In this document: one piece after another, positions 34,684-45,162 of the stretch
Numbering within the stretch: the stretch's first letter is position 1
Layout: each line of letters opens with the position of its first letter
Source: an uncultured Eubacteriales bacterium
Lineage (GTDB): Bacteria > Bacillota > Clostridia > Christensenellales > Aristaeellaceae
NCBI GenBank assembly: GCA_902800625.1
Contig: CADCFG010000009.1
Location: forward strand, 62,001 to 126,000
DNA: 64,000 nucleotides
Reading direction: 5' to 3'
Position numbers and translations under genes: made by a program
Notes under the pieces: model-generated
The model's input: the letters and a program-made list of their open reading frames with translations, nothing else
What the model was told of the DNA's origin: nothing
Database searches by the model: none

Positions 34684-34713
34684 TTGCCATTTACAAACCC
34701 CTTTAAATATGAT
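34684..34713 (+). promoter_or_regulatory. Probable promoter of the rnf-nrfA-ccs cluster
   Basis: TTGCCA (34684-34689), 18-base spacer, TATGAT (34708-34713), about 100 bases before rnfC. The long leader holds no obvious riboswitch. Confidence 0.6.
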
Positions 34714-34811
34714 AGAATTAATTTGTAGGATTATACTGTGGGCGGAATATGCAATCATGTCCGTTCGCGGCACATTCCAGTTAACAAAAAAACACGAGGA
34801 GGTCGAGGACC

Positions 34812-36158
34812 TTGAAGCACACCTTTCGCGGCGGAGTGCATCCGGCCGGGCACAAAGAGCTGAGCCGGGAAATGCCGCTGCGCGACTTTCTGCCCGCGGG
34901 CGAGATGGTCTTCCCGCTTTCGCAGCACATCGGGAAGCCCGCCAAGCCCATTGTGAAGAAGGGCGACAGCGTGCTGGTGGGCCAGCGCATCGCCGAGGCG
35001 GACGGCTATATCTCCGCCAACATCGCTTCCTCCTGCTCCGGCACGGTGAAGGCCATCGAGAAGCGCCGGGTACTGACCGGCGCCATGGCGGACTGCATCG
35101 TCATCGAAAACGACGGCCAGTTCACCCCCGCGGAGGACTATACCCGCCGGCAGGAGCCCGACAGCGTCTCCAACGAGCAGATCATCAGCCGCGTCCAGGA
35201 GGCCGGCGTGGTGGGCCTGGGCGGCGCAGGCTTCCCCACCTGCGTGAAGCTCAAGCCCAAGGACCCGCAGGCCATCCGCGTGGTGATCGCCAACGGCGCG
35301 GAGTGCGAGCCGTACCTGACCTGCAACGACCAGCTGATGCGCACCAAGGCCCCGGAGATTATCGAGGGCCTGGAGCTGGTACTGAGGCTGTTCCCCCGGG
35401 CCAAGGGCGTGGTGGCCATCGAGGACAACAAGCCCGAGGCCATCGCCGCCATGCGGCAGGCCGCGACCGGCAAGGAAAAGATCGAAGTGCGCGCCATGAA
35501 GACCAAGTACCCCCAGGGCGGCGAGCGCAGCCTGATCCAGGCCATCGCCGGGGTGGACTTCCCGCTTTCCCAGCTGCCCGCGGACGTGGGCTGCATCGTG
35601 GACAACGTGGGCACCCTGTACGCCATCCAGCGGGCGGTGCTGTACAACGAGCCGCTGTATTCCCAGTGCCTCACTCTCACCGGCGAGGCGGTGAAGAATC
35701 CCGGCAACTATATCGTGCGGGACGGCACCAGCTTTGCGGAGCTGCTGAACCACGCCGGCGGCCTGAAGGAAGGCGTCAACCTCAAAAAGGCCATGGTGGG
35801 CGGCCCGATGATGGGCTTCGCCATGAGCGAGTTGAACGTGCCCATCCAGAAGCAGAACAACGGACTGACGCTGCTGGCGGAGGACCCCAATGAAAAAGCC
35901 GAGGCCCAGATGACCGCCTGCCTGCGCTGCGGGCGCTGCACCACGGTCTGCCCCGTGGGCCTGCTGCCCCAGCTGATGAGCGAGGCCATCTTCATGGGCA
36001 ACCTGGAGCGCTATGAAAAGAAGCTCTACGGCCTGGAGTGCATCCAGTGCGGCTCCTGCACCTATGTATGCCCGGCCAAGCGGCCTTTGATGCAGGAATT
36101 CAAGCAGGCCAAGGCCGAAATCCTGGCGCGCAGGCGCGCGGAAGGGGGCGGAAAGTAA
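34812..36158 (+). CDS. rnfC: RnfC, NADH/flavin- and Fe-S-containing subunit of the Rnf complex
   Basis: Peripheral subunit where NAD(H) is thought to react in the ferredoxin:NAD oxidoreductase that pumps Na+ or H+. The 448 residues open KHTFRGGVHPAGHK, contain GLGGAGFPTCVKL and GAECEPYLTCND, and end with two [4Fe-4S] motifs, CLRCGRCTTVCP from residue 370 and CIQCGSCTYVCP from 410. The start is TTG at 34812 with GGAGG nine bases before it. It begins the cluster C-DG-E-A-B-nrfA. Confidence 0.95.
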   Translation: MKHTFRGGVHPAGHKELSREMPLRDFLPAGEMVFPLSQHIGKPAKPIVKKGDSVLVGQRIAEADGYISANIASSCSGTVKAIEKRRVLTGAMADCIVIENDGQFTPAEDYTRRQEPDSVSNEQIISRVQEAGVVGLGGAGFPTCVKLKPKDPQAIRVVIANGAECEPYLTCNDQLMRTKAPEIIEGLELVLRLFPRAKGVVAIEDNKPEAIAAMRQAATGKEKIEVRAMKTKYPQGGERSLIQAIAGVDFPLSQLPADVGCIVDNVGTLYAIQRAVLYNEPLYSQCLTLTGEAVKNPGNYIVRDGTSFAELLNHAGGLKEGVNLKKAMVGGPMMGFAMSELNVPIQKQNNGLTLLAEDPNEKAEAQMTACLRCGRCTTVCPVGLLPQLMSEAIFMGNLERYEKKLYGLECIQCGSCTYVCPAKRPLMQEFKQAKAEILARRRAEGGGK

Positions 36159-36159
36159 C

Positions 36160-37746
36160 ATGCTCACCAATCAAAACGAACTGAACCTGTCCTCCAGCCC
36201 CCATGCGAGGGACCGCTGGTCCACCGCGTTCATCATGCGCGTGGTGGTGCTGTCGCTGATGCCGGCCACCATCGTGGGCGTCGTCGTGAACGGCCTGCAC
36301 TCGCTGCTGGTGGTGCTGAGCGCCGTGCTGGCGGCGGTGCTGTCGGAATTCGTGTTCGACAAGATCGCCCATAAGAAGGACACCTGGAAGGACGGCAGCG
36401 CCGTGGTCACAGGCCTGATGCTGGCCCTGTCGCTGTCCCCCTCCGTGCCCATCAGCATGCCCATCATCGGCAGCGTGTTCGCCATCATCGTGGTGAAGTG
36501 CTGCTTCGGCGGCCTGGGCAAGAATTTTTTGAACCCGGCGCTGGCGGCGCGGTGCTTCCTGCTGATCTCCTTCGGCGCCACCATGTCCACCTACCGGGTC
36601 GTGGACGGCGTCACCTCCGCCACGCCCATGGCGCTTCTGAAGAGCGGCGAGGCCGTGAACATCACGAGCCTTTTCCTGGGCACGGCCAACGGCGTCATCG
36701 GCGGCTCCGCGCTGGCGCTGCTGGTGGGCGGCCTGGCGCTGTGGGCCATGGATATCATCCACGGCCAGATCTGCTTCTCCGTGCTGGGCGCGTTCACGCT
36801 GTGCATGGGCCTGTTCGGCGGCCAGGGCTTTGACCCGATGTTCCTGCTGGCGCACCTGCTGGGCGGCGGCGTAATCATGGGGGCGTTCTTCATGGCCACC
36901 GACTATGCCACCAGCCCCGTCGGCCGCCTGGGCCAGACGGTCTACGGCGTGCTGATCGGCGCGCTGGGCGCGCTGTTCCGCATCAAGGGCGGCGCGGCGG
37001 ACTCCTTCAGCTATTCCATCATCAGCGCCAACCTGTTCGTGCCGCTGATCGACATGTACGTCATCCCCAAGCCCTTCGCCTTCCGCAAGGGCATCTCCCA
37101 CGAATATAAGGAAGAAAAGCCGCTGATGCAGCGGATCCCCAAGCCCGTGATCGTGCTGACCGTGATCACGCTGATCGCCGGCCTGGCGCTCTCCGGCGTG
37201 TTCACCATGACCAAGGACACCATCGAGGACCAGAAGCGGGCGGCCAGCGCGGCCTCCTACCAGGTGGTGGTTCCCGACGCGGACCACTTCGACGTGGACG
37301 AGGCGCTGGACAAGGCCGTGGCCGACCTGGACGGCCAGGTCTACGGCTCCGACTACGGCCGCGTGAAGATCAACGAGGCCTTCGTGGGCAAGACCGCGGC
37401 GGACGAGGTGGCGGGCTACGCCATCAGCGTCACCACCTCCGACGGCTTTGACGGCGACGTCACCGTGGCGGTGGGCATCGCGCCAGACGGCACCGTGAAC
37501 GGCATCTCCTTTACCGAGCTGCACGAGACGCCCGGCATGGGCATGCGGGTGGACGAGGACGAGTTCAAGGGCCAGTTCAGCGGCAGGAACGTGGAAAAGT
37601 TCACGCTGAACAAGGCCGGCGGCTCCACCGAGGACGACCAGATCGACACCGTTTCCGGCGCTTCCACCACCTCCGGGGCCGTGGTCAACGCCGTGAACGC
37701 CGCGCTGGACTTCTTCCGCGCCACCGTGAAGGGAGGCAACGCCTGA
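36160..37746 (+). CDS. RnfD-RnfG fusion protein
   Basis: One 528-residue chain joins two membrane flavoproteins of the Rnf complex that are normally separate genes. Residues about 1-325 are RnfD: many membrane helices and the covalent flavin site DGVTSATP at 149-156. A linker (YKEEKPLMQRIPKP) leads to RnfG at about 335-528: one helix, then an FMN-binding domain with SGASTTSG at 499-506, the ApbE-type acceptor. No stop or frameshift separates them and the frame is clean. It begins two bases after rnfC and overlaps rnfE by one base. No apbE flavin transferase lies in the window. Confidence 0.93.
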   Translation: MLTNQNELNLSSSPHARDRWSTAFIMRVVVLSLMPATIVGVVVNGLHSLLVVLSAVLAAVLSEFVFDKIAHKKDTWKDGSAVVTGLMLALSLSPSVPISMPIIGSVFAIIVVKCCFGGLGKNFLNPALAARCFLLISFGATMSTYRVVDGVTSATPMALLKSGEAVNITSLFLGTANGVIGGSALALLVGGLALWAMDIIHGQICFSVLGAFTLCMGLFGGQGFDPMFLLAHLLGGGVIMGAFFMATDYATSPVGRLGQTVYGVLIGALGALFRIKGGAADSFSYSIISANLFVPLIDMYVIPKPFAFRKGISHEYKEEKPLMQRIPKPVIVLTVITLIAGLALSGVFTMTKDTIEDQKRAASAASYQVVVPDADHFDVDEALDKAVADLDGQVYGSDYGRVKINEAFVGKTAADEVAGYAISVTTSDGFDGDVTVAVGIAPDGTVNGISFTELHETPGMGMRVDEDEFKGQFSGRNVEKFTLNKAGGSTEDDQIDTVSGASTTSGAVVNAVNAALDFFRATVKGGNA

Positions 37747-38426
37747 TGAACAAGTATCTTGAACGGCTTTACAACGGCCTGATCAAGGAGAACCCCACGC
37801 TGATCCTGATGCTGGGCATGTGCCCCACGCTGGCGGTGTCCACCCGGGCCATGAACGGCATCGGCATGGGCCTGTCCACCACGGCGGTGCTGATCTTCTC
37901 CAACCTGGTGATCAGCCTGCTGCGCAAGGCCATCCCCGACCAGGTGCGCCTGCCCGCCTACATCGTGATCGTGGCCAGCCTGGTGACGGTGACGGAGCTG
38001 CTGATCGAGGCCTACCTGCCCTCGCTGTATGAGGCGCTGGGCATCTATATCCCGCTGATCGTGGTCAACTGCATCATCCTGGGCCGCGCGGAGGCCTATG
38101 CCAACAAGCACAGCGTGGGCCTTTCCGTGATGGACGCCATCGGCATGGGCCTGGGCTTCACCGTGGCGCTGACCCTGGCCGGCCTGCTGCGCGAGATGCT
38201 GGGCAACGGCACCGCCTTCGGCGCGCAGATCCTGCCCGCCGGCGTGGAGCCCCTGGGCATCTTCATCCAGCCTCCGGGAGCGTTCCTGATCATCGCGCTG
38301 ATCATTGCGGTGCAGAATGCCATCGGTATCAAGACCCGCCAGCGCCACCTGGTGGACGGCGGCTGCGACGGGATGTGCTCCAAGTGCACTTCTGAATGCA
38401 AAACCGGGGAGGTGAGCACCAAGTGA
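37746..38426 (+). CDS. rnfE: RnfE, membrane subunit of the Rnf complex
   Basis: A 226-residue polytopic protein, NPTLILMLGMCPTLAVSTRA opening and IYIPLIVVNCIILGRAEAYA as conserved core with the cysteine thought to bind the membrane [2Fe-2S] centre with RnfA. A C-terminal tail GGCDGMCSKCTSECK adds four cysteines not in the standard core. TGATG overlap couples it to the fusion gene before it. Confidence 0.95.
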   Translation: MNKYLERLYNGLIKENPTLILMLGMCPTLAVSTRAMNGIGMGLSTTAVLIFSNLVISLLRKAIPDQVRLPAYIVIVASLVTVTELLIEAYLPSLYEALGIYIPLIVVNCIILGRAEAYANKHSVGLSVMDAIGMGLGFTVALTLAGLLREMLGNGTAFGAQILPAGVEPLGIFIQPPGAFLIIALIIAVQNAIGIKTRQRHLVDGGCDGMCSKCTSECKTGEVSTK

Positions 38427-39001
38427 AGAGCCTGATCCTCATCGTCATCGGCAGCGCCCTGATCAACAACGTGGTGCTGAACCAGTTCCTGGGCATCTGC
38501 TCGTTCCTGGGCGTGTCCAAGCAGATCAAGGCCTCCGCCAGCCTGGGCGGCGCGGTGATCTTCGTCATCACCATCGCGAGCGCCGTGGCCAGCCTGCTGT
38601 ACGACTACGTGCTGGCGCCCTTGGGCCTGGACTACATGAAGACCATCGTGTTCATACTGGTCATCGCGGCCCTGGTACAGGTGGTGGAGATGTTCCTGAA
38701 GAAGACCTCCCCCGCCATCTACAAGGCGCTGGGCATCTACCTGCCCCTGATCACCACCAACTGCGCGGTGCTGGGCGTGGCCCTGACCAACGTGCAGGAC
38801 GGCTACAACTTCATCGAAAGCGTGCTGTCCGGCTTCGGCACCGCGGTGGGCTACACCCTGGCCATCGTGCTGCTGGCCAGCATCCGCAGCCGCATCCACG
38901 AGGACGACGTACCGGCTCCCCTGCGCGGCGCGCCCGTCGTGCTGATCGCCGCGGCGCTGATGTCCATCGCGTTCATGGGCTTCTCCGGCCTGTCGCTGTA
39001 A
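38423..39001 (+). CDS. rnfA: RnfA, membrane subunit of the Rnf complex
   Basis: A 192-residue six-helix protein homologous to RnfE and inverted in the membrane. Seen: LINNVVLNQFLGICSFLGVSK near the start and IYLPLITTNCAVLGVALTN, each holding one of the cysteines of the shared iron-sulfur centre. The start is GTG 38423, overlapping the rnfE stop (GTGA) with GGAGG ten bases upstream; an ATG-like in-frame extension inside rnfE is not needed. Confidence 0.95.
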   Translation: MKSLILIVIGSALINNVVLNQFLGICSFLGVSKQIKASASLGGAVIFVITIASAVASLLYDYVLAPLGLDYMKTIVFILVIAALVQVVEMFLKKTSPAIYKALGIYLPLITTNCAVLGVALTNVQDGYNFIESVLSGFGTAVGYTLAIVLLASIRSRIHEDDVPAPLRGAPVVLIAAALMSIAFMGFSGLSL

Positions 39002-39013
39002 TGGAGGTGCCAA

Positions 39014-39814
39014 ATGCAGACGATTCTCATTACAACGCTGGTGATCGCCGTGATCGGCATCGTGGTCGGCGCGGGCCTGGTCTACACCGGCAAAAAGTTT
39101 TATGTGAAGGTGGACGAGCGGGAGAGCGCCGTGCGCGAGGTCCTGCCCGGAAACAACTGCGGCGCCTGCGGCTTCGCGGGCTGTGACGCGCTGGCAGCGG
39201 CCGTCGCCAAGGGCGAGGCCCCGGCCAACGCCTGCCCCGTGGGCGGCATGCCCGTGGCGAAGCAGGTGGCGGCCATCATGGGCGTGGAGGCCGAGAACGT
39301 GGAGCGCAAGGTGGCCTTCGTCCGCTGCAAGGGCAGCTGCGACGTGACCCGCAACCAGGGCTACTACGTGGGCATCCAGGACTGCCGCAGCGCGGTGCTG
39401 TCCGGCCTGAACGTCACCGAGTGCGCCTACGGCTGCCTGGGCCTGGGCTCCTGCGTGAAGGCCTGCCCCCAGGACGCCATCCGCGTGGTGGACGGCGTGG
39501 CCATGGTGAACCGCAAGAAGTGCGTGGGTTGCGGGCTGTGCGCCAAGGCCTGCCCCCGGGGCTTGATCGAGCTGGTGCCCGAGAGCAAGCGGGTCTCCGT
39601 GCAGTGCTCCAACCACGACAAGGGGCCCATGGTAAAGAAGTCCTGCGCGGCGGGCTGCATCGGCTGCGGCATCTGCCAGAAGCAGTGCGAGTCCGACGCC
39701 ATCCATGTGACGAACTTCCTGGCCGCCGTGGACTACGACAAGTGCACCCAGTGCGGCAAGTGCGTCGAAAAGTGTCCCGCCAAGGTCATCACCCCGCCGC
39801 CGGTCAATCCTTGA
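39014..39814 (+). CDS. rnfB: RnfB, ferredoxin-like entry subunit of the Rnf complex
   Basis: Accepts electrons from reduced ferredoxin. The 266 residues have one N-terminal helix (about 3-25), a Fe-S domain with GNNCGACGFAGCDALA and NACPVGG, then several 4Fe-4S motifs: CLGLGSCVKACP, CVGCGLCAKACP, CIGCGICQKQCE and CTQCGKCVEKCP. It is last of the Rnf genes, 32 bases before the flavin-NrfA fusion gene. Confidence 0.96.
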   Translation: MQTILITTLVIAVIGIVVGAGLVYTGKKFYVKVDERESAVREVLPGNNCGACGFAGCDALAAAVAKGEAPANACPVGGMPVAKQVAAIMGVEAENVERKVAFVRCKGSCDVTRNQGYYVGIQDCRSAVLSGLNVTECAYGCLGLGSCVKACPQDAIRVVDGVAMVNRKKCVGCGLCAKACPRGLIELVPESKRVSVQCSNHDKGPMVKKSCAAGCIGCGICQKQCESDAIHVTNFLAAVDYDKCTQCGKCVEKCPAKVITPPPVNP

Positions 39815-39846: not shown

Positions 39847-42645
39847 ATGGAAAAAAAGACGATAACCAAGCTGGTCGCCTCCGCGGCGATCCTGGGCCTG
39901 TCGGTCTGGGGCGCCAGCGGATGGGTGGGCGGCCACGACGTGGCCTATCAGAAGCCCGGCCCCTATACCGCCGAGGCCACCAATGATTTCAGCACCGTGC
40001 AGGTGGACGCGACCATCAAGGGCCAGGAGATCACTGACTGCGTCATCACCTCCTCCGGCGACAACGACCTGATGACCGACGCCATCCGCCAGGAGTGGGC
40101 CCAGGCCATCGTCGACGCCCAGTCCGCCGACACGGACGTGATCACCGGCGCGAGCCTGAAGTTCTCCGCCGCGTCCGTGAAGGAGTGCGTGGACGACATC
40201 CTCGTCCAGGCCGGCATCAAGGACGCCAGCGAGATCGAAGCGCCCGCCGAGGCGCCCTCGGAAAAGGCCCCCGCCGAGGTTGAAGAGCCCGCGACGGAGG
40301 AAGGCGCCGATGCGCCCGCGGAGGCCGGGGCCTATGCCGACGGCAGCTATTCCGCCGAGGCCGCCAACGATTTCAGCACCGTGAAGGTGGACGCGACCAT
40401 CGAGGGCGGCAAAATCGCCGACTGCGCCATCACCTCGTCCGGCGACAACGACCTGATGACCGACGCCACCCGCCAGGAGTGGGCCCAGGCCATCGTCGAC
40501 GCCCAGTCCGCCGACGCGGACGCCATCACCGGCGCGACGCTGACCTTCTCCGCCGCTTCCGTGAAGGAATGCGTGGATGACATTCTCGCCCAGGCCTCCG
40601 GCGATACTGGAACGCCCGCCGAGGGCAGCGACGATGAGCGCATCGCCGAGCTGGAGGCGCGCGTGGCGGAGCTTGAAGCTGCCGCCAGCCAGGCCGAGGC
40701 CCGCGTCGCCGAGCTGGAGGCTGCCGCCGCCAGCGGCATCAGCGTGGACGCCATGAAGTACATGCGCCCGCGTCCGGTGTTTGAGGCAGCAGCTTCCATC
40801 GAGGAAGCACCCGCTGAGGAAACCGCTTCCGAGGACAGCGCGGTCGAGGCCGACCCCGCCATGAAGTACATGAGACCCAGGCCCTCCTTCGCCGCTGGTT
40901 CCGCCGAGAAAGCCGAGGAAGCGCCTGCCCAGGACAGCGCAGCCGAGGCCGATCCCGCCATGAAGTATATGCGCGAGCGTCCCGCCTTCGCCGCCGCTTC
41001 CGCTGAGGAAGCATCTTCCGAAGGCAGCGCGGTCGAGGCCGATCCCGCCATGAAGTACATGCGCGAGCGCCCCGCCTTCGCCGCGGCTTCCACCGGGGAA
41101 GCCGCGGAAGCAACCGACGAATCCCCCGTCGCGTCCGCCGACGCCATGAAGTACATGCGCCAGCGTCCCGCCTTCGCCGCGGCTTCCGCCGAGGAAGCGC
41201 CCGCCGAGGAAGCGACCGACGAATCCCCCGCCGTGTCCGGCGACGCCATGAAGTACATGCGTGAGCGTCCCGCCTTCGCCGCGGCTTCTGAAGAGGAAGC
41301 GTCCGTTGAAGAAACGGCCGACGAATCCCCCGCCGTGTCCGCCGACGCCGTGAAGTACATGCGTGAGCGCCCCGCCTTCGCCGCGGCTTCTGAAGAGGAA
41401 GCGCCCGTTGAAGAAACGGCCGACGAATCCCCCGTCGCATCCGCCGACGCCATGAAGTACATGCGCCAGCGTCCCGCCTTCGCCGCGGCTTCTGAAGAGG
41501 AAGCGCCTGCCGAGGAGGCCGCCGAGGAAGCATCCGCCGAGGAAGCCGTCGAAACGGCCTCTGCCGACGCGGACCTGTCCGCCGCCCTGCCCGCCATCGT
41601 GGTGTCCATGGGCGCAAACAGGGAGAACAGCTACGTGACGGACTACCTGGAGCAGGACCCCTACCTGGTGAACATCTACGAGGGCTACGGCTTCGCCAAG
41701 GACTACGGCAGCGCCCGCGGCCACGAGTACACCCTGGAGGACGTGGCCAAGACCCAGCGCCCCCATCCCAAGGCCAACTGCCTGACCTGCAAGACGCCGG
41801 ACTTCCACAAGCTGGTGGAGCAGGAGGGCCTGGGCGTTTACTCCATGCCCTTTGACGACGTGATGGCCCAGATGACCACCAACATCAACTGCTACACCTG
41901 CCACGGCGACGACGCGGGCAACGGCGGCGCGCTGGTGGTCACCCACCAGTATGTGAACGAGGCCCTGGGCGGGAACGTGGGCACCATCAACCCCGCCACG
42001 CTGTCCTGCGGCCAGTGCCACATCGAATACTACTTCACCCCCTCCGACAGCGAGACCATGATGCCCTACGACAGCGTCGAGGCCATGGCTCCCGAGGCGA
42101 TCCTGGCCTACTACGACAAGATGGACTTTGCCGACTGGACCCAGGAGAGCACCGGCACCCGGCTGCTCAAGGCCCAGCACCCCGAGATGGAGACCTTCCT
42201 GGCCGGCAAGCACGCCAATTTCCTGTCCTGCGCGGACTGTCATATGCCCATGGAGACCACGGACACCGGCGTGGCCTATCACAGCCACGAGCTGGTCAGC
42301 CCGCTTCAGAGCGAGGCGCTGCTTCAGACCTGCGCCGCCTGCCACCGGGACACCGACATGGTGGAACTCGTCCACGGCATCCAGGAGAAGGTCACCGCCC
42401 GGGAGACCGAGGTGGGCAACAAGCTCAGCGGCATGAAGGACAAGCTGGCCGAGGCTGTGGCCTCCGGCACCTGGTCCGAGGAGGACCTGAACGCCGTGCG
42501 CACGCTGCACCGTCAGGCCCAGTGGTACTTTGACTTCTGCTACGTGGAGAACTCCGAGGGTGCGCACAACAGCGAGCTGGCCATGCGCTGCCTGGACACC
42601 TCCGACGCGCTGATCGACGAGGCCCTCAAGCTGCTGGACAAGTAA
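39847..42645 (+). CDS. FMN-binding domains fused to pentaheme NrfA-type cytochrome c nitrite reductase
   Basis: A 932-residue exported protein. N-terminal signal/anchor (about 8-28). Two FMN_bind domains: residues about 38-118 with ITGASLK at 99-105 and about 165-250 with ITGATLT at 227-233; only the second keeps Thr at the usual flavin-acceptor place. A short coiled coil (about 262-292) follows, then eight repeats of MKYMR(P/E/Q)RPAFAAAS in an acidic Ala/Glu/Pro linker (298-574). Residues about 578-932 are NrfA: CLTCK at 645 (lysine-ligated active heme), CYTCH 682, CGQCHIEYYF 721, AQHPEMETF then CADCHMP 795, CAACH 829. It likely reduces nitrite to ammonium, or a related oxyanion, with electrons from Rnf via flavins. 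Confidence 0.93.
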   Translation: MEKKTITKLVASAAILGLSVWGASGWVGGHDVAYQKPGPYTAEATNDFSTVQVDATIKGQEITDCVITSSGDNDLMTDAIRQEWAQAIVDAQSADTDVITGASLKFSAASVKECVDDILVQAGIKDASEIEAPAEAPSEKAPAEVEEPATEEGADAPAEAGAYADGSYSAEAANDFSTVKVDATIEGGKIADCAITSSGDNDLMTDATRQEWAQAIVDAQSADADAITGATLTFSAASVKECVDDILAQASGDTGTPAEGSDDERIAELEARVAELEAAASQAEARVAELEAAAASGISVDAMKYMRPRPVFEAAASIEEAPAEETASEDSAVEADPAMKYMRPRPSFAAGSAEKAEEAPAQDSAAEADPAMKYMRERPAFAAASAEEASSEGSAVEADPAMKYMRERPAFAAASTGEAAEATDESPVASADAMKYMRQRPAFAAASAEEAPAEEATDESPAVSGDAMKYMRERPAFAAASEEEASVEETADESPAVSADAVKYMRERPAFAAASEEEAPVEETADESPVASADAMKYMRQRPAFAAASEEEAPAEEAAEEASAEEAVETASADADLSAALPAIVVSMGANRENSYVTDYLEQDPYLVNIYEGYGFAKDYGSARGHEYTLEDVAKTQRPHPKANCLTCKTPDFHKLVEQEGLGVYSMPFDDVMAQMTTNINCYTCHGDDAGNGGALVVTHQYVNEALGGNVGTINPATLSCGQCHIEYYFTPSDSETMMPYDSVEAMAPEAILAYYDKMDFADWTQESTGTRLLKAQHPEMETFLAGKHANFLSCADCHMPMETTDTGVAYHSHELVSPLQSEALLQTCAACHRDTDMVELVHGIQEKVTARETEVGNKLSGMKDKLAEAVASGTWSEEDLNAVRTLHRQAQWYFDFCYVENSEGAHNSELAMRCLDTSDALIDEALKLLDK
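40741..41570. repeat. Eight in-frame repeats of the MKYMRxRPAF unit
   Basis: GCCATGAAGTACATGCGC-type segments recur eight times at intervals of about 84-105 bases within the flavin-NrfA gene. They keep frame and vary mostly in the acidic spacer. The repeated basic-aromatic motif between acidic spacers is of unknown role. Confidence 0.9.
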
Positions 42646-42665: not shown

Positions 42666-42738
42666 ACAGATCCTTCGCTGCGCTCAGGATGACAACGATG
42701 CGATACCTGTCATCCTGAGCCAAGCGGAGGATCTTGTT
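42666..42738. repeat. CTTCGC-type palindromic repeat between nrfA fusion and resB
   Basis: ACAGATCCTTCGCTGCGCTC..AGGATGACA and TGTCATCCTGAGC..GCGGAGGATCT are complementary arms. Member of the family at 3705. Confidence 0.85.
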
Positions 42739-42760
42739 CATTCCAACGGGAAGCAATCCT

Positions 42761-44068
42761 ATGAAAGCAATCAAGAAAACCTGGAAATTTCTCTGCTCCA
42801 TGCGCTTCGCCATCATCCTGCTGGTGGTGCTGGCCATCGCCTGCTCCGTGGGCAGCCTGGTCACCCAGGGGCAGAGCTACGACTGGTACGCTCAGCGCTA
42901 TTCCGAGCGCACGGCGGGGCTGATCGTCGCGCTGGGGCTGGACGACGCCTTCCACAGCATCTGGTTCATCGTCATCACGGCCTTCCTGTGCCTGAACCTT
43001 CTGCTGTGCAACCTGACCCGCCTGCCCCAGCTGATCCGCCGCACACAGGCGGAGGGCAAGCCGGACGGCGCGCTGCGCACCCAGGGCGACGTGACCAGCG
43101 AGCGCGTCCCGGACCCCGAAGCCGCCTTCGCCCGGCTGCGCATGCCCAGGCCCGAGCCCTGCAAGACGGAGGACGGCCGGAAGGCGCTGTTTTCATCGAA
43201 GCACCGCGCGGGCCTGTGGGGCGCGTGGGTGTGCCACCTGGGCATCCTGCTGCTGATCCTGGGCTTCGGCCTGGGGCAGATGACCCAGAAGCAGTACACG
43301 GTCTACGGCGTGCCCGGGGACGCAAAGCCCATCGGCGACACCGGCTGGATGCTTGAAATCGACGACTTCACCATCGGCCTGCGGGAGGATGCCACCGTGG
43401 AGCAGTATACCGCGGCCATCAGCGTGTACAGCCCGGAGGGCGGCGATGCGACCCGCGAGAGCGCCGAGATCAGCGTGAACCACCCGGCCACCCTCAAGGG
43501 CCTGAAGTTCTACCAGAACTCCACCGGCTGGGCCACGCGGGTGAACGTGCTGAAGGACGGCGCGCCGCTGCAGGACGCCGTGGTCTGCGCCGGGGATTTC
43601 CTGCCCGTGGCGGACAAGCCGGACCTGGTGGTGTACCTGAACGCCTTCTATCCGGATTACGTGCTCACCCCGGGCGTCGGCCCCTCCACCGCCTCCGCGG
43701 ACATGAACAACCCCGCCTGGCTGTATTCCGTGTACTATCAGGGCCGGCTGCTGGGCATGAACGCGCTGATGGACGGTGAGGAGCTGACCGTGGACGAGTA
43801 CACCTTCACCTTCACCGACACCCAGAACTTCACCCTGATCCAGATCAAGGAGGATCACTTCGCGTGGCTGGCCCTGCTGGGCGGCATCGCCACGATGCTG
43901 GGCCTGTTGCTGGCGTTCTACGTGCAGCCGGCCAGGGTCTGGGCCGTGCAGGAGACGGACGGCAGCTGGACGCTGCACGGCGCCTGCCGCAAGGGCGGGA
44001 CGATCTTCAGGGAGAAGTTCGCGCAGGCCGCCGGCGGCAGGGAAGGAACGGCAGAGGAAGAACCCTAA
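42761..44068 (+). CDS. ResB-like cytochrome c assembly protein
   Basis: Part of the system II (Ccs) machinery that carries heme outward and attaches it to c-type cytochromes. The 435 residues open with SMRFAIILLVVLAIACSVGSLV, have a second and third helix (IWFIVITAFLCLNLLLCNLTRLPQL and WGAWVCHLGILLLILGFGLGQ), a large external domain containing KGLKFYQNSTGW, typical of ResB, and a last helix FAWLALLGGIATMLGLLLAFYV. ATG 42761. It serves the multiheme protein encoded just upstream and works with the CcsA-like protein encoded downstream. Confidence 0.9.
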   Translation: MKAIKKTWKFLCSMRFAIILLVVLAIACSVGSLVTQGQSYDWYAQRYSERTAGLIVALGLDDAFHSIWFIVITAFLCLNLLLCNLTRLPQLIRRTQAEGKPDGALRTQGDVTSERVPDPEAAFARLRMPRPEPCKTEDGRKALFSSKHRAGLWGAWVCHLGILLLILGFGLGQMTQKQYTVYGVPGDAKPIGDTGWMLEIDDFTIGLREDATVEQYTAAISVYSPEGGDATRESAEISVNHPATLKGLKFYQNSTGWATRVNVLKDGAPLQDAVVCAGDFLPVADKPDLVVYLNAFYPDYVLTPGVGPSTASADMNNPAWLYSVYYQGRLLGMNALMDGEELTVDEYTFTFTDTQNFTLIQIKEDHFAWLALLGGIATMLGLLLAFYVQPARVWAVQETDGSWTLHGACRKGGTIFREKFAQAAGGREGTAEEEP

Positions 44069-44305: not shown

Positions 44306-45121
44306 ATGCTTCAAGTCGAAAACACCCAGTTCACCATCGTCATGCTGCTGTATTTCGCGTCGATGCTGCTCTACTTCGCGTTCATCGCGGTGAAGAAGGA
44401 TGGCGTGGCCAAGGTGGCCGTGGGGCTGCAGATCGCGGGCCTGGCGCTGCACACGGCGGCGCTCATCTGCCGGGGAATCGGCGCGGGGCGGCTGCCGCTG
44501 ACCAACCAGTATGAGTTCGCCACGTCCTTCGCCTGGGGGCTGTGCCTGGTCAGCCTGATCTTCGTGTTGAAGTTCAAGTTCCCGGTGCTGGGGGCGTTTT
44601 CCGCGCCGGTGGTATTTTTGATCATCGGCTATGCCGCCATGCAGAGCAAGGAGGTCAAGAACCTGATGCCCGCCCTGCGCAGCAACTGGCTGGGGTTCCA
44701 CGTGTCCACGGCCATCATCGCCTACGGGGCCTTCGGCGTCAGCTTCGTGCTGGGCGTCATCTTCCTGCTGCGGCAGCGGATGCGCGACAGCGGCTTCCTG
44801 GACCAGCACATCCCCAAGCGGGAGAAGCTGGACGTGATCGCCTATCGCAGCGTGTCGCTGGGACTGCTGTTTCTGACGTTCACCATCGTCACCGGCGCCA
44901 TCTGGGCCGAGCGCGCCTGGGGCAGTTACTGGTCCTGGGACCCGAAGGAGACCTGGTCGCTGGTCACCTGGATCATCTACGCCGCCTATTTGCACCTGCG
45001 CCTGCGCCGGGGCTGGGAGGGCCGCGCCGCCGCCATATTCGCGGTGATCGGCTTCGTCTGCGTGATCTTCACCTACATCGGCGTGAACACGTTCCTGCCG
45101 GGAATACACAGCTACGCCTAA
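44306..45121 (+). CDS. CcsA/ResC-like cytochrome c assembly protein
   Basis: Heme-handling membrane partner of ResB, 271 residues with about eight helices. The tryptophan-rich WWD-type motif reads WGSYWSWDPKETWSLVTW, and conserved histidines sit in NWLGFHVSTAI and YLHLRLRRGWEG. ATG 44306 with GGAG upstream. It closes the rnf-nrfA-ccs cluster and is followed by a terminator. Confidence 0.94.
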   Translation: MLQVENTQFTIVMLLYFASMLLYFAFIAVKKDGVAKVAVGLQIAGLALHTAALICRGIGAGRLPLTNQYEFATSFAWGLCLVSLIFVLKFKFPVLGAFSAPVVFLIIGYAAMQSKEVKNLMPALRSNWLGFHVSTAIIAYGAFGVSFVLGVIFLLRQRMRDSGFLDQHIPKREKLDVIAYRSVSLGLLFLTFTIVTGAIWAERAWGSYWSWDPKETWSLVTWIIYAAYLHLRLRRGWEGRAAAIFAVIGFVCVIFTYIGVNTFLPGIHSYA

Positions 45122-45132
45122 TTGACAAACAA

Positions 45133-45162
45133 ATAGACCCCAAAAGGGGTCTTTTTGTTTGC
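45133..45162 (+). terminator. Intrinsic terminator of the rnf-nrfA-ccs cluster
   Basis: AGACCCC and GGGGTCT pair around AAAA and are followed by TTTTTGTTT, 15 bases after the ccsA-like stop. Confidence 0.9.

Follow-up and report, generated by a model that had tools for sequence, protein, structure and literature searches.

An in-frame fusion of FMN_bind domains with the pentaheme nitrite reductase NrfA, encoded in the Rnf operon of a Christensenellales bacterium

The DNA analysed here is a stretch of 64,000 nucleotides (the window) from a MAG of a ruminant-gut bacterium; the genome is 94.8% complete. Between positions 34812 and 45121 the gene order is rnfC - rnfD/rnfG - rnfE - rnfA - rnfB - fusion - resB - ccsA (Table 1). 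RnfA, B, C, D, E, and G are all encoded together, and rnfC is the only RnfC_N match in the genome; the Rnf of the window is the sole Rnf of this organism's genome. Since one cluster of promoter matches and one terminator flank the genes, rnfC through ccsA, with the fusion included, are predicted to form a single transcription unit. RnfD and RnfG are joined in one 528-aa protein, and the same joining is seen in every related cluster where RnfD was found. The RnfG part carries its own FMN_bind domain. The NrfA fusion protein has no match to TIGR01947 (RnfG); RnfG is a separate entity, the C-terminal half of 36160-37746.

Table 1. Features of the Rnf-NrfA locus (positions in the window)
Feature	Position	Strand	Basis or remark
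Clustered sigma-70-like promoter matches before rnfC	34684..34737	+	consensus matches only
rnfC	34812..36158	+	TIGR01945 5e-150
rnfD-rnfG fusion	36160..37746	+	TIGR01946 aa 13-306, TIGR01947 aa 331-520; FMN_bind 5.5e-18
rnfE	37746..38426	+	TIGR01948 1.7e-73
rnfA	38396..39001	+	TIGR01943 4.5e-78; 5' end of the ORF overlaps rnfE; the actual start may lie further downstream
rnfB	39014..39814	+	TIGR01944 2.5e-32 and Rnf-like Fe-S families
FMN_bind x2 - repeat linker - NrfA fusion protein, 932 aa	39847..42645	+	ORF, Pfam, NCBI family, PDB matches
Hydrophobic N-terminal segment, aa 9-27	39871..39927	+	hydropathy only
FMN_bind domain 1, ~aa 37-128	39955..40230	+	82% identical to domain 2; no separate Pfam call
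Flavinylation motif DVITGAS, domain 1, predicted acceptor Ser103	40135-40155	+	
FMN_bind domain 2, ~aa 165-255	40339..40611	+	PF04205 1.7e-6 (aa 178-236); PDB 8p2a 9.5e-5
Flavinylation motif DAITGAT, domain 2, predicted acceptor Thr231	40519-40539	+	
Coiled-coil-like RIAELEARVAELEAAASQAEARVAELEAAA, aa 265-294	40639..40728	+	sequence and 21-nt periodicity; coiled coil inferred
Eight copies of A(M/V)KYMRxRPxF in acidic Ala-rich linker	40750..41481	+	sequence
NrfA (pentaheme cytochrome c nitrite reductase) domain	41572..42642	+	PF02335 1.7e-77; PDB 3ubr 2.6e-49, 1gu6 5e-47
Heme motif CLTCK (heme 1)	41779-41793	+	
Heme motif CYTCH	41890	+	
Heme motif CGQCH	42007	+	
Heme motif CADCH	42229	+	
Heme motif CAACH	42331	+	
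resB (system II cytochrome c maturation)	42734..44068	+	PF05140 1.4e-55
ccsA-type heme handling protein	44306..45121	+	TIGR03144 2.5e-80 (NCBI name CcsB)
Terminator-like hairpin with T-run, just past ccsA	45135..45152	+	

The gene between rnfB and resB is one uninterrupted frame with no internal stop. Its first half encodes, from the N-terminus, a hydrophobic segment, FMN_bind domain 1, an acidic Pro/Ala/Glu linker, and FMN_bind domain 2. These are followed by a coiled-coil-like stretch, an acidic Ala-rich repeat region, and NrfA (aa 576-932). The hydrophobic segment is a probable membrane anchor or signal, and stand-alone NrfA relatives carry a segment of the same kind. The original prediction, which placed FMN_bind domains and NrfA in a single polypeptide, is confirmed as an observation by the intact frame, the domain matches, and the motifs. 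That prediction did not include the eight-copy AMKYMRxRPxF array, the stretch resembling a coiled coil, or the setting in an Rnf operon.

A frameshift or missed stop at 41570-41600 was checked for and is unsupported, as the in-frame join recurs in independent MAGs and the dN/dS at the junction is 0.31 and 0.41. The identical join is present in two independent MAG loci, L057 (97% NrfA identity) and L058 (90%), and fused NrfAs constitute a clade of 27 members; hence, the fusion is not an assembly error. In comparison with L057 and L058 the dN/dS is 0.21-0.24 for NrfA, 0.31-0.41 for the junction, 0.12-0.30 for the repeat region, and 0.39-0.91 for the FMN domains. Purifying selection acts on the whole fusion frame, with the flavin domains being the least constrained.

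The Pfam Cytochrom_C552 match covers aa 594-926 of the fusion (E=1.7e-77). The nearest solved structures are 3ubr (2.6e-49), which we take to be NrfA of Shewanella, and 1gu6 of E. coli (5e-47). The five heme motifs expected from the original prediction, one CLTCK and four CxxCH, are all located and are invariant in relatives; the CGQCHIEYYF motif is also present, with its Glu-Tyr pair conserved in the alignment to E. coli NrfA. In the alignment to 1gu6 and 3ubr, the Arg of RGH, the Glu and Tyr of HIEYYF, the Lys, Gln, and His of KAQHPE, and the Lys of heme 1 are all kept, and the active-site residues are nearly all invariant among relatives. With the roles assigned from E. coli NrfA, Arg, Tyr, and His are presumably catalytic, and Glu, Tyr, Lys, and Gln presumably form the calcium site. 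Four further histidines (RGH, GKH, SHE, and AHN), aligned with conserved NrfA histidines, are invariant in 14 relatives and would suffice as the distal ligands of the four bis-His hemes. The E. coli C-terminal extension is absent from the fusion's NrfA family in the alignment. The fusion has the sequence hallmarks of an NrfA, and activity from nitrite to ammonium is predicted. It shares with the E. coli (1gu6) and Shewanella (3ubr) enzymes the five hemes, the CxxCK of heme 1, and the catalytic and calcium-site residues. However, unlike them, it has a shorter C-terminus, a probable membrane anchor, fused FMN_bind domains, no NrfH, and a place in an Rnf operon.

Two N-terminal FMN_bind domains had been proposed. 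Pfam calls only the second of them; since the first shares 82% identity with it over 85 aa, both are real. The fusion matches the covalent-FMN structures SaFMN3-D2 (8p2a, 9.5e-5) and CbFMN4-D1 (8p2b, 1.1e-3), whose proteins likewise have tandem FMN_bind domains, the DxxS/TGAT motif, and an N-terminal anchor; unlike the window fusion, they have no heme domain. The motif recognized by ApbE is D-x-x-S/T-G-A-S/T with the last S/T taking the FMN, and Ser works less well than Thr as the acceptor (PMC12052999; PMC10339131). With an A to V change in the motif about 50% of flavinylation remains in a model protein (PMC12052999). ApbE is encoded in the window's genome (G000:C2:41567-42388, 281.7 bits). 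Among 72 FMN domains of the fused relatives the motif is canonical in 46, has the A to V change in 17, and the G to S change in 8; in some relatives all motifs are altered (TSAS/TSSS in L058, SGVT in L061-L064). Given the state of the motifs and the ApbE gene, covalent flavinylation is likely in the window protein and less sure in relatives such as L058.

The eight repeats of the linker follow A(M/V)KYMR(P/E/Q)RP(V/S/A)F, begin across aa 302-535, and are basic within an acidic surround. The consensus of 58 copies aligned from ten proteins is R/K - F/Y/L - M - R - P/x - R - P - A/V, of which the search pattern required R, R, and P and left the other positions unconstrained. MRxRP arrays occur in the window's genus, and the pattern search found none in ten other genera of the order; a reversed control pattern finds none. 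Species differ in which extracytosolic redox protein bears the array, FMN-NrfA fusions being among the carriers. We suggest that the repeats may act as a docking module to a partner shared by several extracytosolic redox proteins. In L046 (8538-9779, minus strand) and L047 (8131-9519, minus strand) the array belongs to an FMN_bind-like protein that lacks NrfA and is encoded next to an FMN-FAD reductase. It forms the tail of a triple-RnfG protein in L048 (9085-11121, minus strand), within a second Rnf-like cluster, and the tail of a stand-alone NrfA in L081 (7674-9665).

GTDB genomes were scanned with a 14-row NrfA alignment, which gave 79 loci, nearly all from ruminant-gut MAGs. Of the 79, 69 have rnfB upstream of nrfA, usually within 100 bp, 77 encode ResB downstream, and 60 have a complete rnf set. 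Most of these loci encode a stand-alone, N-terminally anchored NrfA of ~426-435 aa. This NrfA is present in 13/297 genomes of the order. Across the class any NrfA is found in only 5/391 genomes, and among those five only the window's frame is long (938 aa, versus 410-451 aa). In a tree of 91 NrfA rows, built with a quick method, the FMN-fused NrfAs group in a single clade (27 rows, SH-aLRT 99) that is surrounded by stand-alone NrfAs, and the fused state changes twice. Within this clade 0-5 FMN domains precede NrfA and 0-4 follow it. The second fused case on the tree is L122 (6153-9071), where FMN_bind, FAD_binding_2, and NrfA are joined in a single polypeptide. It retains before the heme domain the PEATSxDGT segment of stand-alone NrfAs, which suggests an independent fusion. 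A single clade for all fused NrfAs, with L122 included, is not rejected (p-AU 0.09), so that a second origin, although likely, is unproven. On the simplest history the Rnf-NrfA pair would have come first, and flavin domains, in some cases also a second reductase, would have been added to it later. Inside the main clade, L113 (755-4411) has FMN_bind, a fumarate-reductase-like FAD_binding_2 domain, and NrfA in one chain, and L145 (1483-4065, minus strand), cut at its 5' end, has the FAD and NrfA parts only. Chains of FMN_bind, FAD_binding_2, and NrfA hold two terminal reductases in one polypeptide.

NrfA usually receives electrons from NrfH or NrfB, and the original prediction was that flavins replace that partner here. 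No member of the NrfH family (PF03264) is found in the window's genome or in 24 relatives. The window's genome also has no UbiA-type quinone prenyltransferase, by a search positive in 14/14 control genomes, and no VitK2_biosynth of the futalosine pathway. The ordinary quinol-NrfH-NrfA route thus appears to be missing, and with ApbE present and the flavinylation motifs intact, flavins are plausible donors to NrfA. This part of the prediction holds, but in most relatives the rnf-nrfA-resB-ccsA cluster contains an NrfA without any FMN domain. Hence, the replacement of NrfH is more likely the Rnf complex itself, and the FMN domains are more likely a later addition. The sole molybdopterin oxidoreductase of the genome looks formate-dehydrogenase-like from its sequence, and no Nar- or Nap-type nitrate reductase is seen in this 94.8% complete MAG, so nitrite would have to come from outside.

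We suggest that the fusion is a membrane-anchored, multi-cofactor terminal nitrite reductase of Rnf that is fed via flavins, and we regard this reading as fairly probable. The Rnf operon setting suggests that nitrite is respired straight from Rnf, independently of quinones. Reduced ferredoxin and/or NADH would deliver electrons to RnfB/RnfC, and across the membrane these electrons would reach the FMNs that the RnfD-RnfG fusion carries. The next carriers would be the covalent FMNs of the NrfA fusion, followed by the five hemes of its NrfA domain, which would convert nitrite to ammonium on the outside of the membrane. With the long acidic linker, the flavin domains may be able to move back and forth between RnfG and NrfA, and the basic MRxRP repeats probably dock the fusion to a partner. 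The hemes would be attached by ResB and CcsA, and the flavins by ApbE.

Precedents for such wiring exist. The closest tested case of an rnf-operon cytochrome fed by Rnf is MmcA of Methanosarcina acetivorans (PMC11024163), also a multi-heme cytochrome; however, it is archaeal, heptaheme, kin to octaheme tetrathionate reductases, reduces methanophenazine, and has no FMN_bind fusion. In Listeria FrdA (PMC8238504) an FMN_bind domain links an extracytosolic reductase with the chain in the membrane within one polypeptide, but catalysis there is by an FAD flavoprotein domain instead of a cytochrome. Counted against the proposed chain are the altered FMN motifs of some fused relatives, the weaker constraint on the FMN domains than on NrfA, the apparent lack of a Nar- or Nap-type nitrate reductase, and the ~5% incompleteness of the MAG. 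Since most Rnf-linked NrfAs do without fused FMN domains, the principle cannot depend on them.

The main competing view is direct reduction of NrfA by RnfG, with the fused FMN domains partly redundant and working to buffer electrons, to keep a distance, or to hold the protein at the membrane. If Rnf is the donor in the stand-alone relatives, RnfG must reduce NrfA in this way there. Direct transfer is consistent with the predominance of clusters with a stand-alone TM-NrfA, with the degraded motifs and weaker selection just mentioned, and with the number and side of the FMN domains varying freely (N0-5, C0-4). However, all 27 members of the clade keep the fused state, repeated gains of FMN domains suggest use, and both flavinylation motifs are intact in the window. 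We consider direct transfer unlikely for the fusion. Less probable still is a general Rnf-linked extracytosolic platform whose flavin domains also feed other reductases or extracellular acceptors, with NrfA mainly detoxifying nitrite, NO, or hydroxylamine. FMN_bind-FAD_binding_2 reductases are encoded between rnfB and nrfA in L077 (5700-7769) and L134 (3278-5425), suggesting a second Rnf-fed acceptor, and are fused to NrfA in L113 and L122; bifurcated flow to alternative acceptors was proposed by Meheust et al. 2021 (PMC8238504). Yet the window operon has no FAD reductase and its NrfA active site is complete; we consider this platform improbable. An assembly or frameshift artefact, for which the MAG origin and a repetitive linker prone to collapse or expansion (eight may be an inexact copy number) would speak, is rejected as extremely improbable, because many independent MAGs from different studies show the same join with divergent linkers, the fused clade has 27 members, and dN/dS is below 1 across the join.

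The original prediction knew of no described protein with exactly this order. Multi-flavinylated 'RnfGs' with a multi-heme cytochrome domain were reported in Christensenellales by Meheust et al. 2021 (PMC8238504, Fig. 6H). These share with the window fusion several FMN_bind domains, a multi-heme domain, an RNF cluster, and the taxonomic order, and almost certainly belong to the same family, so the combination of FMN_bind and multi-heme domains is not itself new. Meheust et al. treat the protein as RnfG and do not identify its heme domain as NrfA, whereas in the window RnfG is separate and fused to RnfD. They mention neither a stand-alone ancestor, nor the repeats, nor the FAD fusions. We found no description of an Rnf-NrfA pairing in the literature searched (preprints and most subscription papers lay outside its scope). 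Apparently undescribed, therefore, are the complete NrfA with a separate RnfG, the Rnf-NrfA operon with stand-alone NrfA, the MRxRP repeats, and the FAD-reductase-NrfA fusions.

More broadly, we lean slightly towards a widespread undescribed quinone-independent chain in ruminant-gut Clostridia, in which Rnf would act as a ferredoxin/NADH:nitrite oxidoreductase with NrfA as its dedicated extracytosolic terminal subunit, and which would have acquired covalent flavin tethers together with a docking module of repeats, specific to the genus and common to several extracytosolic redox proteins. The established role of Rnf is that of a ferredoxin:NAD ion pump. If the proposal is true, the conserved Rnf-NrfA operon makes Rnf a direct, energy-conserving, nitrite-respiring dehydrogenase that works without quinones, in bacteria usually classed as fermenters. 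Nitrite reduction in the rumen competes for the electrons that methanogenesis uses and spares the host nitrite poisoning, hence both the bacteria and their mechanism are relevant to nitrate feeding for methane mitigation. In addition, the fusion is a test case in which electron transfer between covalent flavins and hemes could be studied within one chain.

Two further arrangements were seen among the related loci. L048-L050 and L052 carry a second, divergent cluster with a multi-flavin RnfG, rnfC, D, E, and A, no RnfB match, and often apbE nearby. In L094 (7788-10220), an Rnf cluster labelled Solobacterium, two NrfAs are joined in an 811-aa tandem with ten heme motifs.
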